From contig CAIFEQ010000001.1 in the NCBI GenBank assembly GCA_903789495.1, positions 26,439 to 90,438 on the forward strand: a stretch of DNA of 64,000 nt. Direction: 5' to 3'. A program made the translations under genes and the position numbers. Below the pieces are notes generated by a model. It did no database searches. It was not told the DNA's origin and saw only the letters and a list, made by a program, of their open reading frames with translations. Positions 18,300 to 48,339 of the stretch are shown piece after piece (position 1 is the stretch's first letter; each line of letters opens with the position of its first letter). The DNA is from an uncultured Erysipelotrichaceae bacterium. GTDB lineage: Bacteria; Bacillota_I; Bacilli_A; Erysipelotrichales; Erysipelotrichaceae.

Positions 18300-18345
18300 A
18301 GCAGTCAGAAAAAGACAGACTGCCTGATGCGGCAGTCTGACTGCG
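18300..18345 (-). terminator. Intrinsic terminator after PBP gene
   Basis: minus strand CAGACTGCCGCATCAGGCAGTCTGTCTTTTTC. Confidence 0.75.
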
Positions 18346-18346
18346 T

Positions 18347-21300
18347 CTATTCGTATGGATGGAAGTTGCCGGCTTCGTCCCACCAGCCGCCGTCCACCCA
18401 GACACCGGTATTCGGATCGATGTAGCCGTAGGAGCTGCTGTCGGTATAGTGACCGGAGCAGGTTTCCGTCGGTGCCGTATCGGCTGTCGCATACTCCATG
18501 TATGCATACCCGGAGTCGGCGCAGGAACTGGAAGCCCTGAGGCCGGTCAGGCGGCAGACATAGTACTTGCTGATGCCAAGTTCTTCCGCCGTGGTATCCT
18601 GGATCTCCTGATCTTCCAGACCCTCGTGAATCGGATCCATATAGCTCTTCCACAGTGCCGAGGACTGATAATACGAGGAACTGTTGTAGAAGTCCACGTA
18701 GTCATCCGTCGAGATTCTCAGGAAGCTGGTGTAGTAGTGCGTATAGCCGCCGAAGCTGATAGCCTTGTGCTCATGCGTGCCGGTCTTGCCGCAGCTGGTA
18801 ACCGTGCTGAGGCGGGCATTGACACCCAGACCTTCCGTCATGTTCGTTTCCATCATGTCGGTGATCAGCCAGGCCGTCGATTCCGAGAAGACCCGGTGGC
18901 TTTCCACATTGTCGTCAGACAGGATCAGTTCTCCGGAACGGTCATATACCGCGGTATAGCAGTGCGGTTCAATGTATACGCCGTCATTGGCCAGGCAGGC
19001 ATAGGCTGCCGTCATCTCCATTGTCGTCACATCCACCGCACCCAGCGCCAGGCCGGCAGCGGTCTTCACAAGTTCATCCTCGGAGAAGCCTTCTTCCAGC
19101 ATGTAGTTATAGGAATTCTCCAGACCGACCCGTTCCAGCAGGAATCTGGCAGCCGGAATGTTATGCGACAGTTCCAGCGCCCGGCGCATGGTGATCGGAG
19201 CATCGGTATAGTCACCCTCGGGATACCCGTTGTCGACGCCGTAGCCCTCAATGGAATACGGCATATCATCCACCACGGTACCCGGATAGTCGCCTTCCTC
19301 CAGGGCCGGTGCATAGACGGACAGCGGCTTGATGCTCGAGCCGACGGCCTGCTTGGAGTCCACAGCCCGGTTGTAGCCTTCGACCTCGGTGGCCTGTTCA
19401 CGGCCGCCGACAATCGCCTTGACTTCACCGGTATGCTGGTCCATGACCACCGCCGAGAACTCGGCTTCCGATCCGCTCGAGGTCTGCGGATAGTTGTCAA
19501 ACTCCGAAGCTGCCGTCTGGACCGTCTCCTGAATGGTGGGATCAATGGTCAGATAGATCTTGTATCCGCCATTGCGGAACATGTCCTTGGTCTCGGCAAT
19601 GGCATCATCCGTGATTTCGGTTCCCTGCGCGGTCAGGTAATCTTCGGAGATTTCGGTCATCGCATAGTCGATGAAATAGGCATTGGCATAATACTCATCA
19701 CTGGTCTTGGCATTCCGCGCAGTCGGCGAAACCACCAGGGTATCTGCCATGGCCTCTTCATACTGCTCCTCCGTGATCTTGTCATTCTCCAGCATGGTGT
19801 AGAGCACCGTGTCGGTCCGCTCATTGGTCGGCGTCATGTCGCCTTTTTCATAATTCACCCGCGGACTGTAGTAGTTCGGACTCTGCACCAGGCCAGCCAG
19901 GCAGGCACACTCCCGCAGCGTCAGCTCATCCAGGCTCTTGCCGAAGTAATCCTCTGCCGCATTGACCACGCCATAGTTGGAGCCGCCCATGAGCATGGTA
20001 TTCAGATACCACTCCAGGATCTCGTCTTTCGACATCTCCCGTTCAAGCTTCAGAGCCAGGTAGATTTCCTGAATTTTTCGTTTATATGTGACCTCCTGGG
20101 TCAGGTACATGTTCTTGATCAGCTGCTGGGTGATCGTCGAAGCCCCATAGGAGGCGGTTCCGGTCAGCTGGCCCCAGATGGCCCCGATGAGCCGCTTGAT
20201 ATCGATGCCATGATGCTCATAGAAGTGATGATCCTCAATCGCAATGAAAGCATCGATCAGCTGCTGAGGCACATCTTCGATGGATACCCAGGTGATGTTC
20301 TCATTGGACCCGTAGTCCAGCAGGTATTCCCCGTTGGTGTCATAGATCTGCGAGGCCTGACTGTAGGTCGTCAGCTTGGACAGATCCAGTTCCGGCACAT
20401 CCTGCAGGTTATAGGCGATATAGCCGCACCCGGCCCCGAAAAGAGCCAGCAGGACAATCAGCACCGTCCGCAGAACATAGTGTTTCTTTTTCTTCTTTCC
20501 TCCGGCCGCTTTCCCGTTCTTTTTCTTACCGGAAGGTTTCGGCAGGCTGAAGCCTGCCAGGCCGGCTTTCTGTTCCGGCTGGGCTGTCTTTTCTGCCGTC
20601 TTCTGAGCGGCAGAGTTCCGGGCCTTTTCCGTCTGTGCAGTCTTATGTGTTTCGGCAGCAGAGGTCACCTGAACGGCCGGTTTCTGCTCTGATGCCGTGG
20701 TCTCTGCGGCCGCTGCCACGTTCTTTTCTGCGTCTGCTTCCGCTGTGTCCTTCTGGGCCGGTTTCTGCTTCTCTGCCGTCTTCTTTCCGGCTGCCGATGC
20801 AGTACCGACTGCGGCAGCGGTCTTCAGCGGCTGCTCAGACGTACTCCTCTCCGGCTCTGCGGCACTGGCATTCTTCTGCGCAGAAGCTTCCGCTGGGGAT
20901 GCCGGGCTGCTCTTCTTTTCCGTATGAAAAACCGGAATCTCGTAGGTTTCCTCACCTGCCGGATTCTTTTTCTTCGGCTGACTGCCGGTCTTGCTGCCGG
21001 AAGCAGTCTCCGGATGAAAGGCCGGCGGCACGGCTGCGCTGTGCTTTTCCAGCTGATTGACAAATTCAACTGCCGTAAAAGGATAGCTTAAGACAATCCC
21101 GGCTCCCTGCGGAGTGGGATTGGTCTCATCGCCAAGCAGAAAGACCGGCAGCTGCGGCTGCTCTTCCTTCAGGATCTGCGCCAGCCAGCGTCCCGTCTGT
21201 TTCTTCAGTGTTGAGGCAGGCAGAATGACTGCCTGATAGGTTCCGGAACTCGCTGCCTGATAGGCCGAGGAGCGTTCTGCGATAAATTCAGTCGGGATCT

Positions 21301-21379
21301 GATGGCTTTTCAGAATGGCTGCCAGATCAGACCGGAAATTCTTCTTTTCTTCAATAACCAGGATCTTCATTTGCTTCAC
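18347..21379 (-). CDS. Class A penicillin-binding protein (PBP1a-like) with N-terminal pseudo-receiver domain and low-complexity cytoplasmic linker
   Basis: GT51 motifs IEDHHFYEHHGID, GASTITQQLIKNMYL; transpeptidase SSIKP, SHN, KTGT; first ~110 aa resemble CheY fold: MKILVIEEKKNFRSDLAAILKSH...AVILPAS...PVFLLGDE...VLSYPFTAVEF. Confidence 0.92.
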   Translation of the reverse strand: MKQMKILVIEEKKNFRSDLAAILKSHQIPTEFIAERSSAYQAASSGTYQAVILPASTLKKQTGRWLAQILKEEQPQLPVFLLGDETNPTPQGAGIVLSYPFTAVEFVNQLEKHSAAVPPAFHPETASGSKTGSQPKKKNPAGEETYEIPVFHTEKKSSPASPAEASAQKNASAAEPERSTSEQPLKTAAAVGTASAAGKKTAEKQKPAQKDTAEADAEKNVAAAAETTASEQKPAVQVTSAAETHKTAQTEKARNSAAQKTAEKTAQPEQKAGLAGFSLPKPSGKKKNGKAAGGKKKKKHYVLRTVLIVLLALFGAGCGYIAYNLQDVPELDLSKLTTYSQASQIYDTNGEYLLDYGSNENITWVSIEDVPQQLIDAFIAIEDHHFYEHHGIDIKRLIGAIWGQLTGTASYGASTITQQLIKNMYLTQEVTYKRKIQEIYLALKLEREMSKDEILEWYLNTMLMGGSNYGVVNAAEDYFGKSLDELTLRECACLAGLVQSPNYYSPRVNYEKGDMTPTNERTDTVLYTMLENDKITEEQYEEAMADTLVVSPTARNAKTSDEYYANAYFIDYAMTEISEDYLTAQGTEITDDAIAETKDMFRNGGYKIYLTIDPTIQETVQTAASEFDNYPQTSSGSEAEFSAVVMDQHTGEVKAIVGGREQATEVEGYNRAVDSKQAVGSSIKPLSVYAPALEEGDYPGTVVDDMPYSIEGYGVDNGYPEGDYTDAPITMRRALELSHNIPAARFLLERVGLENSYNYMLEEGFSEDELVKTAAGLALGAVDVTTMEMTAAYACLANDGVYIEPHCYTAVYDRSGELILSDDNVESHRVFSESTAWLITDMMETNMTEGLGVNARLSTVTSCGKTGTHEHKAISFGGYTHYYTSFLRISTDDYVDFYNSSSYYQSSALWKSYMDPIHEGLEDQEIQDTTAEELGISKYYVCRLTGLRASSSCADSGYAYMEYATADTAPTETCSGHYTDSSSYGYIDPNTGVWVDGGWWDEAGNFHPYE

Positions 21380-21576
21380 CCGTCAGCCGGGCATAATGAT
21401 TATCGCCTATTTTTCCTAAAACGCAAACATCCAAGACTTAAGATTGCTGAATTTCCGAATCGGAAATTCTGTGTGAACACGGTACCGTATGTCTGCTTTT
21501 CCGGAAAAATTCCGGTCCTTTCTGCTCTGTCGGCTGAAGACTGCCGCAATGGTATAATCAGACGCGGAGGATTGCC

Positions 21577-42895: not shown

Positions 42896-44233
42896 ATGCT
42901 TCATCTGCAACGTCTGCCCCTGCGTCTGTCTACCTTCCAGGTCATCACCATCGGCTTTGCCGCGGTGATCCTGTGCGGCGCCCTGCTGCTGTGTCTGCCG
43001 GGTGCTTCCGCTGACGGGGAAAGCTGCGACTTCCTGACCGCCCTGTTCACCGCTGTCTCAGCGGTCTGTGTCACCGGTCTGGTGGTCGTGGATACAGCTC
43101 AGTCCTGGAGTCTGTTCGGACAGCTGGTCCTGCTGATCCTGATTCAGATCGGCGGCCTGGGAGTCGTCACGGCTGCCATGGCCCTGTCCCTGGCCTCCGG
43201 CCGGCGGATCGGTCTGCAGGAACGCTCCCTGCTCAAGGATGCTGTCAGTGCCCCGCAGATCGGCGGCATTGTCCGCATGACCCGCTTCATCCTGCACGGC
43301 GTGCTGCTCATCGAAGGCATCGGTGCCGCCCTGCTGGCGCCGGTCTTCTGCCGGGACTTCGGGCTGGGCCGAGGGATTTACTATGCCGTGTTTCATGCCA
43401 TCTCCGCCTTCTGCAATGCGGGCTTCGATCTGCTGGGCGGCACGGAAGCCTTCAGTTCGCTGACCCGGTATGCCGCGGATCCGCTGGTCAACCTGGTGAT
43501 CACGGCTCTGATCATCATCGGCGGCATCGGCTTTGTGACCTGGGATGACTTCCGCCGCCATCACTTCCATTTCCGCCGCTGGCGTCTGCAGTCCAAGCTG
43601 ATCGTGACGGTTACCGGGATTCTTCTGCTGGTGCCTTTCCTGCTCCTGTACTTTCTGGAGTTTGCGGATCTGCCATTCGGAGAACGGGTGCTGGCAGCCT
43701 GGTTTCAGACCGTGACGGCCCGGACTGCCGGGTTCAATACCGTCGATCTGAACCAGCTGTCAGACGCCGGGAAGATGCTCATGATCCTGCTGATGCTGAT
43801 CGGCGGCGCCCCGGGTTCCACTGCCGGCGGGATGAAGGTCACGACCATCGCCCTGCTGATGCTGTGGGCTTCGGCAGGCCTGCGGCGGCAGAAGTATGCC
43901 CGTGCCTATCAGCGGCGCATCGATGCGGATTCCCTGCATTCCGCCGTCACCCTGTTCATGCTGATCCTGAGTCTGTTCCTCGGCGCTTCCATGCTGCTCA
44001 GCGTGCTGGAAGGCCTGGAACTGCTGCCCTGCATGTTTGAATGTGCTTCTGCCCTGGGAACGGTCGGTCTCACGCTCGGCCTGACGCCCACGCTGCATCC
44101 CGTTTCTCTGGTCATTCTGATGATTCTGATGTACAGCGGCCGGGTCGGCGGCCTGACTCTTGCCTATGCCCTGCGGGCAAACGGCGAAGCAGAGGCCAGC
44201 CGTCTGCCGCAGGAAACAGTCGCCATCGGCTGA
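42896..44233 (+). CDS. TrkH/KtrB-type potassium uptake membrane subunit
   Basis: LFTAVSAVCVTGLVVVDT; GAPGSTAGGMKVTT; ASALGTVGLTLG. Confidence 0.92.
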   Translation: MLHLQRLPLRLSTFQVITIGFAAVILCGALLLCLPGASADGESCDFLTALFTAVSAVCVTGLVVVDTAQSWSLFGQLVLLILIQIGGLGVVTAAMALSLASGRRIGLQERSLLKDAVSAPQIGGIVRMTRFILHGVLLIEGIGAALLAPVFCRDFGLGRGIYYAVFHAISAFCNAGFDLLGGTEAFSSLTRYAADPLVNLVITALIIIGGIGFVTWDDFRRHHFHFRRWRLQSKLIVTVTGILLLVPFLLLYFLEFADLPFGERVLAAWFQTVTARTAGFNTVDLNQLSDAGKMLMILLMLIGGAPGSTAGGMKVTTIALLMLWASAGLRRQKYARAYQRRIDADSLHSAVTLFMLILSLFLGASMLLSVLEGLELLPCMFECASALGTVGLTLGLTPTLHPVSLVILMILMYSGRVGGLTLAYALRANGEAEASRLPQETVAIG

Positions 44234-44906: not shown

Positions 44907-45119
44907 ATGCTGGTCATCCTGATCGTTGTCTCTCTGGTTCTGTGCCTGACGGTTCCCGCTTTCCTGCTGCCGAAACTGTTTGATTCCATTCACGCAGGCC
45001 GGCGGCAGACGGCCGGGAAACCGATCAGGAAACAGCCCCGCCGGCAGCCGTACCGCCGCCGGAACCCGCGCCCTTTTGAGGAGACGGAGAAGTCCTGGAC
45101 ACCGGGCAGACTGCTATGA
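44907..45119 (+). CDS. Small TM-anchored basic protein
   Basis: 70 aa; hydrophobic N-terminus then Arg-rich tail; stop overlaps kdpD-like start (ATGA). Confidence 0.6.
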   Translation: MLVILIVVSLVLCLTVPAFLLPKLFDSIHAGRRQTAGKPIRKQPRRQPYRRRNPRPFEETEKSWTPGRLL

Positions 45120-47116
45120 TGGTAGCGGCTGAGGAAACCGTCATGACCAATCTTAAAGATCACGCCCAGCATATCCTGGTCTGTGTCTCTCCTTCTCCGT
45201 CCAGTCCGCGCATCATTCAGGCGGCGCTGTGCATGGCGGAGGGAACCGGCTGTCAGCTGAGCGCCCTGTATATCCGCCGTCCCGATACCGTGCTTTCCCG
45301 GAGTGAGGAGCAGCGGCTGGGGCAGAACCGCGCCCTGCTGCAGGAGCACGGGGTCGAACTGGAAACCGTCGAAAGCATGGACGTGGCCCTGGAGATTTCC
45401 GCCGTTGCCCAGGCCGCAGGCATCACGGAAATCTTTCTGGGCAGCTCGGGAGAGAACCGGCTGTTTCAGAACGGATCCATCGGGGCGCGGCTGATCCGCT
45501 ATCTGCCGGGAGTGGAGATCCACATCATTCCCGATGCCTCGGTGACGCCTCGTCCCTCAGAAGAGAGGCGTCCCGGCCGGCCTTTCCATCTGGAGGGACG
45601 GGATCTGTTTCTGACCGTTGCCATCATGGCACTGGCCACCCTGATCTCCTACTTCTTCTGGCTGTCCAGCTATGACAATGCCAACATCCTGACCATCTAT
45701 CTGCTGGCCGTGCTGTTAAGCGCCGCCGTGACCAAGGACTATTTCTATTCCCTGCTGGCGGCGGTGCTGAGCATTCTGCTGTTCAACTTCTTCTTCACCG
45801 AACCGCTTTATACCCTGCTGGTCTACGATGCCCGCTACTTCGTCACCTACCTGGTGCTCTTTGCGGCCTCGCTGCTGGCCGGGACCCTGGCCTACCGCCT
45901 GAAATATACCGCCCGCCAGTCGGCCCAGAATGCCTACGGCACCCGGGTGCTGTATGAGACCAGCGAACTCTTCCAGAAGGCCGAAGACGAACACGCCGTC
46001 ATCGATATCACCTGCACTCAGCTGGTCCGTCTGCTGGACCGCACGGTGATCTACTATCCCCTGGAAGGGGAGCAGCTGGGCGATCCGCTGATCTACCCTG
46101 CCGCGGCCGAGACGCCGGATCATCAGGTCATCGAGGCCGAACGCACCATGGCGGAAACCGCCCGTCAGGACCAGGCGGCGGAGACCTCCGGGACCTTCCC
46201 GGCCGGCCACTATCTGTATCTGCCGGTGCGGGAAGACACCCAGGAGTTCGGCGTGCTGGGCCTGGGGCTGCAGACCGGACTGGACTCCTCGGAAAAGCAC
46301 CTCCTGCTGTCCATCGTCAATGAATGCGCCATCTCGATCGGTGAAAAACGCAGCCTGCGGCAGAAGGAACTGGCCGAGATCGAGGCCGAGAAGCAGAAAT
46401 TCCGGGCCACCCTGCTGCGCTCCATCTCGCATGATCTGCGCACCCCGCTGACCTCCATCAACGGCAATGCGGACAATCTGCTGCAGAATGGCAGCGCCAT
46501 GGACGAAGCGGACCGCCAGAGCATCTATCAGGACATCCGCGACGACAGCGACTGGCTGATCGGCATGGTCGAAAACCTGCTGGCCGTGACCCGCCTGCAG
46601 GAAGGCTCCGTCCTGCACGAAACCACCGAACTGGTGGAGGATGTCGTCCAGGAAGCCCTGAAACACGTCGACCGGAACAGTCAGAAACACACGATTGAGG
46701 TCCTGATCGAAGACATGCTCACGGCAAGGATGGACAGCCGCCTGATCATTCAGGTGCTGGTCAATCTGGTCAACAATGCGGTCAAGTATACGCCGGACGG
46801 TTCCCTGATCCGCATCTCCGCCTGGCAGCAGGGCGAAGCCGTCCTGGTGCAGGTAGCCGACAACGGCCCCGGCATCGCCCCGGCCGATCAGCCCCATATC
46901 TTTGATCTGTTCTATACCGGTACACACAGCCTGCCCGATGCCGGCCGCAGTGTCGGCATGGGTCTGTATCTCTGCCGCAGCATCATCGAGGCGCATGGCG
47001 GTACAATAGCCGTATCGGACAATGCCCCGCATGGTGCCGTCTTCACATTCCGTCTCAGACACGAGGAGGTCGACCTTGATGGATCTCAGAACCCGGATAC
47101 TTGTCGTGGAGGATGA
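45116..47116 (+). CDS. KdpD-like sensor histidine kinase lacking N-terminal KdpD domain
   Basis: Usp-like HILVCVSPSP, DUF4118-type TMs, LRSISHDLRTPLTSINGNADNLL H-box, GMGLYLCRSIIEAHGG. Confidence 0.9.
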   Translation: MMVAAEETVMTNLKDHAQHILVCVSPSPSSPRIIQAALCMAEGTGCQLSALYIRRPDTVLSRSEEQRLGQNRALLQEHGVELETVESMDVALEISAVAQAAGITEIFLGSSGENRLFQNGSIGARLIRYLPGVEIHIIPDASVTPRPSEERRPGRPFHLEGRDLFLTVAIMALATLISYFFWLSSYDNANILTIYLLAVLLSAAVTKDYFYSLLAAVLSILLFNFFFTEPLYTLLVYDARYFVTYLVLFAASLLAGTLAYRLKYTARQSAQNAYGTRVLYETSELFQKAEDEHAVIDITCTQLVRLLDRTVIYYPLEGEQLGDPLIYPAAAETPDHQVIEAERTMAETARQDQAAETSGTFPAGHYLYLPVREDTQEFGVLGLGLQTGLDSSEKHLLLSIVNECAISIGEKRSLRQKELAEIEAEKQKFRATLLRSISHDLRTPLTSINGNADNLLQNGSAMDEADRQSIYQDIRDDSDWLIGMVENLLAVTRLQEGSVLHETTELVEDVVQEALKHVDRNSQKHTIEVLIEDMLTARMDSRLIIQVLVNLVNNAVKYTPDGSLIRISAWQQGEAVLVQVADNGPGIAPADQPHIFDLFYTGTHSLPDAGRSVGMGLYLCRSIIEAHGGTIAVSDNAPHGAVFTFRLRHEEVDLDGSQNPDTCRGG

Positions 47117-47789
47117 TCATTCCGTCCGGAACCTGATCACGACCACGCTGAAGATTCATGATTACAGCTACGCCACCGCCGCCACCGGTGCCCAGGCCAT
47201 CGCGGCCGCAGCCAGCCAGAATCCCGACATCATTCTGCTGGATCTGGGCCTGCCGGACATGGATGGCAGCGAGGTCATCCGGAAGGTGCGCAGCTGGAGC
47301 AATCTGCCGATCATCATCATCAGCGCCCGCAGCGAAGACAGTGACAAGATCACCGCCCTGGATGCCGGCGCCGATGATTATCTGACCAAGCCCTTCTCCG
47401 TGGCCGAACTGCTCGCCCGCATCCGGGCCACCGAGCGCCGCCTGGCCGCCAGCCGGGATCCCAGGGGCGAGGCGGAATTTCATAACGGGCCCCTGTGTAT
47501 CCGCTATGCCTCGGAACAGGTGGAAGTGCAGGGCGAATCCGTTCACCTGACGCCGATCGAATACCGCCTGCTGACCACCCTGGCCCGCAATCTGGACCGG
47601 GTCCTGACCCACAGCTTCCTCATCAGCCAGATCTGGGGAGCCAGTTCCGAATCCAACATGGCCTCCCTGCGGGTGTACATGACCACCCTGCGCCGCAAGC
47701 TGGAAAAGGCCGGCGCAGCCGGACTGATCGAAACCCATGTAGGGGTCGGCTACTGCATGATCCGTTCGGCAGATCCCGAAAATCATTAG
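47079..47789 (+). CDS. KdpE-like response regulator
   Basis: RILVVEDDHSVRNLI; ILLDLGLPDMDG; TKPFSVAELLARIRATERR; OmpR-type wHTH. Confidence 0.92.
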   Translation: MDLRTRILVVEDDHSVRNLITTTLKIHDYSYATAATGAQAIAAAASQNPDIILLDLGLPDMDGSEVIRKVRSWSNLPIIIISARSEDSDKITALDAGADDYLTKPFSVAELLARIRATERRLAASRDPRGEAEFHNGPLCIRYASEQVEVQGESVHLTPIEYRLLTTLARNLDRVLTHSFLISQIWGASSESNMASLRVYMTTLRRKLEKAGAAGLIETHVGVGYCMIRSADPENH

Positions 47790-47796
47790 TTTCCTG

Positions 47797-47847
47797 TTGT
47801 ACCGCAGAGAAAGATGTACTATCATTGATTTGGTTGATACTACATCT
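47797..47847 (+). promoter_or_regulatory. Promoter (TTGTAC-N17-TATCAT) overlapped by inverted-repeat operator of MarR gene
   Basis: AGATGTACTATCA ... TGATACTACATCT near-perfect inverted repeat. Confidence 0.65.
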
Positions 47848-47865
47848 TTTTTTCGGAGGCTTAAT

Positions 47866-48339
47866 ATGGATGTAACAAAGAGACAGATCACCAAGATCGC
47901 CCGGGAAGTGGCCAAATACACGACCCGGGCCATGAAGCAGGACGGAATCGGCCCGGCCGAATTCGACTATCTGCATGTCATCCGCAAGAATCCCGGCATC
48001 ACCCAGGCCCGCATCTGCCGGATCCTGACCCTGGACAAGGGTGCCGCCGCCCGCCGGGCCGCTGCCCTGGAAGCCAAGGGCTATCTGGTCCGCCGTCAGA
48101 ATCCCCAGGACGGCCGCAGTCAGCTGCTGTATGCCACCCCCAAGGCCGAGGCACTCAAGAATTCCAAGGCCTGGATCGAAGCGCATTACTACGAATGGCT
48201 GGAACAGGAACTCAGTCCGGAAGAACAGCAGCAGTTCGCCTCCCTGCTCAACCGGATTTACCAGAAGAACAAGGCCGAATCCAAGGCTGACTTTGTCCAT
48301 GTGCAGGCGTATATCCGGGAAAAGGAAGTGGAAAAATGA
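47866..48339 (+). CDS. MarR family transcriptional regulator
   Basis: LHVIRKNPGITQARICRILTLDKGAAARRAAALEAKGYLVRRQNPQDGRSQLLYATPKA. Confidence 0.88.
   Translation: MDVTKRQITKIAREVAKYTTRAMKQDGIGPAEFDYLHVIRKNPGITQARICRILTLDKGAAARRAAALEAKGYLVRRQNPQDGRSQLLYATPKAEALKNSKAWIEAHYYEWLEQELSPEEQQQFASLLNRIYQKNKAESKADFVHVQAYIREKEVEK

Follow-up and report, generated by a model that had tools for sequence, protein, structure and literature searches.

Introduction

What is known of direct cytoplasmic control of class A PBPs involves mainly short peptides and small membrane partners. GpsB attaches to cytoplasmic mini-domains of these synthases, including those of PBP1, PBPA1 and PBP2a, which are short basic SRxxR-like peptides (PMC6335420). 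Pseudo-receivers, the aspartate-less relatives of receiver (REC) domains (PF06490 FleQ, PF00072 variants), have a (beta-alpha)5-type fold without the phosphorylation residues and are carried by DNA-binding, signalling or motility proteins; PF06490 domains are counted among them in the literature. They can act via protein-protein contacts, and some have small ligands, for example quinones in the case of CikA and KaiA, or antibiotic end products in that of JadR1 and RedZ (PMC12632262). FrzS of Myxococcus xanthus, which is not an enzyme, uses its pseudo-receiver for protein binding and positioning; through the alpha3-beta4-alpha4 face it contacts SgmX at the pole of the cell, as cited in PMC12632262. 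The same 2025 review calls the action of bacterial pseudo-receivers a mystery (PMC12632262).

Here we describe a class A PBP that carries a pseudo-receiver ahead of its membrane helix and so brings two known kinds together in a new domain combination. In the open-licence literature searched, the main text of pseudo-receiver papers included, we came across no description of a PBP that bears a receiver or pseudo-receiver; within that literature, the remark of an earlier note on this DNA that it knew of no described PBP1a with this architecture stands. The protein resembles the PBP1A family (TIGR02074) in domain order, catalytic motifs and its single N-terminal transmembrane (TM) helix, but it scores below the curated cut-off and has a receiver-fold domain and a long linker ahead of the helix. 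As in the GpsB-bound mini-domains, the candidate docking site is the N-terminal, cytoplasmic portion of a class A PBP; whereas those are short peptides, here it is a predicted folded domain of ~110 residues. Compared with other pseudo-receivers, the domain has the same kind of fold without phosphorylation residues and its best Pfam match is PF06490, which exceeds its cut-off on the isolated fragment, but it lacks helix alpha4, which belongs to the face used by FrzS, and it sits on a membrane-anchored synthase.

Results

One reading frame joins the receiver domain to the PBP

The window, which is the whole stretch of 64,000 nucleotides analysed here, encodes the PBP in an open reading frame at 18347-21379 (-), 1010 aa long when counted from a GTG. 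The ATG at 21370 is more likely to be the start than the GTG at 21379, three codons upstream, because most homologous receivers begin at that Met and a probable ribosome-binding site, GGTGA (21376..21380, -), lies 5 nt before it. The class A PBP with its N-terminal pseudo-receiver would thus extend over 18347..21370 (-) and comprise 1007 aa. This ATG is codon 4 of the 1010-codon frame and the first codon of the receiver domain. No other ATG occurs before the TM helix, so the receiver domain must be translated. That translation begins only after the domain is very unlikely, because the alternatives there are the GTGs at 117, 221 and 238, which have no clear ribosome site. This survey of start codons rules out, on sequence, the objection raised in the earlier note that the true start might lie downstream and leave the region untranslated. 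The gene appears to be monocistronic, with a divergent ORF upstream and an intrinsic-terminator-like stem-loop (18316..18339, -; consensus match) just past its stop codon.

The N-terminal domain is homologous to receivers

The pseudo-receiver domain (21032..21370, -) has, by homology and model, the order b1 a1 b2 a2 b3 a3 b4 b5 a5, with no a4. Profile searches identify the first ~110 residues of the PBP as a true receiver homologue, beyond chance. The FleQ family PF06490 scored 24.9 bits (E=2.6e-5) on the isolated fragment, over its gathering cut-off of 22, and 19.3 bits on the whole protein, under that cut-off. Likewise, Response_reg matched the isolated fragment with E=2.3e-4 and was below cut-off on the full protein. 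As a query, the domain matched OmpR-type response regulators of the family genomes with E-values down to 2.2e-7 per genome and ~30% identity; its identity to any receiver found is only about 20-30%. A set of 127 PBP ORFs, some of them present twice, was scored with a REC HMM built from 31 response regulators, the window protein being left out of the HMM; the window protein reached 49.8 bits (E=2e-15) and the next best other protein 4 bits.

AlphaFold (AF2) run with a response-regulator alignment predicted a receiver fold (pLDDT 87.4, pTM 0.82), and the PDB matches of this model were overwhelmingly receiver domains (TM 0.75-0.83). On the single sequence, AF2 produced a poor model (pLDDT 56). 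The confident model depends on the supplied alignment of receivers and thus represents a consistency check. Together, the HMM score, the PF06490 match of the fragment and the AF2 model with alignment confirm the CheY/REC layout that the earlier note had read in residues 1-~110. Its expectation of a (beta-alpha)5 REC structure is supported in the form of a degenerate receiver fold, recovered with the alignment (pLDDT 87), in which alpha4 is absent.

The active site is lost and the core is kept

In the family alignment, with numbering from the ATG, the metal-binding acidic pair is replaced by E7/E8, the acceptor Asp by P51, the conserved Thr/Ser by G80 and the active-site Lys by Y96. The degenerate site noticed earlier (EE, Pro at the acceptor position, Tyr for Lys) is therefore real at the level of the alignment. 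In addition, the Tyr of Y-T coupling is replaced by Val93 and the D+4 Pro by Lys. Helix alpha4 is missing through a 6-residue deletion, and the P-rich DETNPTPQG in its place is non-helical in the model; helices alpha1 and alpha5 are predicted to be intact. Hydrophobic residues are retained in 25/30 hydrophobic-core columns relative to the receiver alignment, a statistic that is biased upward, with an inflated P value, because the columns were taken from an alignment. A kept core with changed phosphorylation positions is what selection for the fold, and not for the chemistry, would be expected to leave.

A canonical receiver or response regulator has a phosphorylatable Asp, a T/S and a Lys, where this domain has P51, G80 and Y96. 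Pseudo-receivers lack at least one of the five active-site residues (DD, D, T/S, K), and by its aligned residues the domain fits the pseudo-receiver description in PMC12632262. Phosphorylation of the domain was set aside, as every phosphorylation residue is changed.

Linker, membrane helix and synthase modules

The domain is followed by a linker of ~185 residues (20477..21031, -) which is, by composition, rich in Ala, Lys, Glu, Thr, Ser and Pro and has a Lys-rich end, and then by a single TM helix identified by hydropathy (20405..20476, -; residues about 302-325, in a hydrophobic stretch at 300-325). Since the Lys-rich run lies right before the single TM helix, the N-terminus is predicted to be cytoplasmic. 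The protein should have an N-in topology, with the domain and linker in the cytoplasm and the catalytic domains outside.

The GT51 transglycosylase domain (19793..20326, -; PF00912, 205 bits, E=6.3e-61) carries the catalytic E382 in an IED motif, invariant in a six-sequence alignment. The transpeptidase domain (18734..19456, -; PF00905, 103 bits, E=2.3e-29) has S681xxK684 (SSIK, 681-684), S738xN740 (SHN, 738-740) and K865TG (KTG, 865-867), all invariant in the orthologue alignment. A C-terminal extension ending GWWDEAGNFHPYE (18350..18733, -) is, by alignment, partly conserved in genus orthologues. The protein thus has the GT51 catalytic Glu, the SxxK/SxN/KTG motifs and the single N-terminal TM helix, its topology being inferred, of a class A PBP. 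TIGR02074 matched with E=1e-143 and 480 bits, just under the curated cut-off of 508.75, and by these profiles the protein is filed as a class A PBP only. The Pfam matches, the full set of catalytic motifs and the hydropathy agree with the arrangement given in the earlier note, a linker and one TM helix followed by intact GT51 and transpeptidase modules.

The PBP is an accessory synthase

The genome of this gut bacterium encodes three class A PBPs. A PonA-like housekeeping PBP lies on C5 (G000 C5, locus L208 774-5379), with recU directly before and overlapping it; a gpsB-like gene ending ...DILKRLSRLEEEVF is located about 0.8 kb upstream of recU-ponA on the other strand. This recU-ponA order with a gpsB-like gene nearby resembles that of B. 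subtilis. The third class A PBP is on C31. Because the housekeeping recU-ponA PBP lies elsewhere, on C5, the window PBP is an accessory class A PBP. No kinase, regulator, division or partner gene was found next to it, and its first 360 residues contain no SRxxR motif, the mark of a GpsB-dependent PBP. We counted 7 HisKA kinases in the genome and 7 response regulators that exceed the Response_reg cut-off; the domain has no close relative among the genome's response regulators (best 10.7 bits). Codon usage is less genome-typical in REC (0.52) and linker (0.49) than in the synthase part (0.69).

Distribution and origin of the fusion

This PBP was detected at E<=1e-100 in 15 of the 70 genus genomes, its own included, and the others are 53-61% identical. 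Public records assign two of the relatives with this PBP to Solobacterium MAGs from sheep gut. Orthologues with a readable N-terminus have unrelated low-complexity tails and no REC. These tails of the orthologous accessory PBPs (L002-L009, L061-L064) are unusually long, about 140-380 residues, non-conserved, Lys/Glu/Pro/Ala-rich and cytoplasmic. A diverged REC hidden in the orthologues was considered and rejected: no other PBP ORF exceeded 4 bits with the REC HMM, and the tails are of low complexity.

The earlier note had envisaged co-occurrence of REC and GT51 across Erysipelotrichia. This was not what we found: across all genomes of the genus (70), family (276) and order (320), REC searches revealed no second REC-PBP, so that the fusion is a singleton at each of these levels, and none appeared in samples of 395 class and 388 phylum genomes. 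Such searches would not pick up a PBP joined to a receiver of unrelated origin. Hits in the order, class and phylum sets were ordinary response-regulator-sized ORFs, except for ORFs of 368 and 578 aa, neither of them among the GT51-positive ORFs. A public genome scan with the domain returned no relative, a scan with the PBP alignment returned only PBPs without REC, and viral contigs searched with the whole protein gave no match. Judging from these searches, the fusion looks private to one species.

In a tree of the synthase part, the window PBP forms a lone long branch (0.5) inside the genus clade. As relatives and outgroup PBPs alike are without REC, the simplest reading of the tree is a gain of REC on the window PBP's own branch. 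Synteny in the relatives was inspected for a source of the REC, both at the PBP and at the neighbouring HAD gene, and no receiver gene was recognisable as such. The PBP neighbourhood differs among sub-clades of the genus, with at least three settings (L082, L084 and L083 versus the window). In G020, the PBP adjoins genes that are found 31-36 kb away in the window, which indicates that the locus has been rearranged.

Discussion

We tentatively propose, as a reading somewhat short of probable, that the domain acts as a phosphorylation-independent protein-docking module on the cytoplasmic end of the accessory PBP. A recruiting or sensing role for such a module, as suggested in the earlier note, is plausible. 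In our reading, a receiver of OmpR-type response-regulator ancestry was fused to the cytoplasmic N-terminus of the PBP in this lineage; its phosphoryl-transfer chemistry has gone, as have Y-T coupling and helix alpha4, while the receiver core is retained. The remaining face, for which alpha1/alpha5 is the candidate, may dock a partner from the cytoplasm, which the long flexible linker would then tether to the synthase at the membrane, with a possible effect on localisation or activity. Such a role would be analogous to that of the short GpsB-bound N-terminal mini-domain of B. subtilis PBP1.

Docking is our best guess because the core is kept and alpha1/alpha5 are predicted to be intact while alpha4 is gone. 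By analogy, FrzS/SgmX and the GpsB-bound mini-domains of class A PBPs lend it precedents. Tethering is favoured over allostery since the linker is long and of low complexity. The docking reading is weakened by the restriction to one species on a long branch, by the less genome-typical codon usage of REC and linker, by the orthologues, which do without REC, and by the lack of an adjacent partner gene. It is also weakened by the dependence of the AF2 confidence on the supplied alignment and by the upward bias of the core statistic.

The main rival, which we regard as rather unlikely, is that a receiver fragment became joined to a tail-tolerant PBP and is a tolerated passenger, translated and folded, doing little and heading to decay. 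Orthologue N-termini vary freely, with unrelated low-complexity tails of roughly 140-380 residues, and the species-specific fusion, the loss of the active site and alpha4, and the less typical codon usage of REC and linker are all consistent with it. However, the core has survived a long divergence, with 25/30 columns hydrophobic and 49.8 bits despite about 20-30% identity, an argument qualified by the fact that part of the REC divergence may predate the fusion. An assembly artefact or wrong start, by which the REC would not be part of the protein at all, is very improbable. The genome is a draft of 60 contigs and the junction is seen in one genome only, but it lies in an uninterrupted frame of 1010 codons, well away from the contig ends, with no ATG between domain and TM helix. 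Moreover, homologous receivers begin at the same Met, and the codon usage of REC and linker is alike, so there is no composition break at their junction.

The pseudo-receiver could also bind a histidine kinase or receiver of its own cell, linking the PBP to a sensor or titrating a kinase. Pseudo-receivers have been proposed to act on two-component partners (PMC12632262), the genome offers 7 response regulators and 7 HisKA kinases, and the alpha1 and alpha5 helices are predicted to be intact. Such coupling, which we consider improbable, is opposed by the absence of neighbouring kinase or regulator genes, by the low similarity of the genome's regulators to the domain (best 10.7 bits) and by the damage to the OmpR-type alpha4-beta5-alpha5 dimer face. 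A role as ligand sensor, with a metabolite bound in the altered pocket exerting allosteric control over the PBP, seems more improbable still: it has precedents in CikA, KaiA, JadR1 and RedZ (PMC12632262), but the ~185-residue low-complexity linker between domain and membrane makes direct allostery unlikely, and no data here point to a ligand.

If docking is true, a folded signalling-type domain on a synthase would be a new way of controlling cell-wall synthesis. It is tempting to speculate, as a doubtful extension of the docking reading, that a dead receiver was recycled as a regulated docking domain, which would connect peptidoglycan synthesis directly, bypassing transcription, with a partner in cytoplasmic signalling or the cell cycle. 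The REC-PBP would also be a natural test case for pseudo-receiver action in bacteria.

Other features of the window

Very long antisense ORFs on the plus strand, such as the one of 777 aa opposite the PBP at 18359-20692 (+), probably stem from high GC3 and do not count as evidence of genes. At 45116-47870 (+), a kinase ORF of 666 aa that matches HisKA is followed by an OmpR-type response regulator that begins near the kinase end. The pair lies just downstream of a TrkH-like gene (42896-44233) and is probably a KdpDE-type potassium system.
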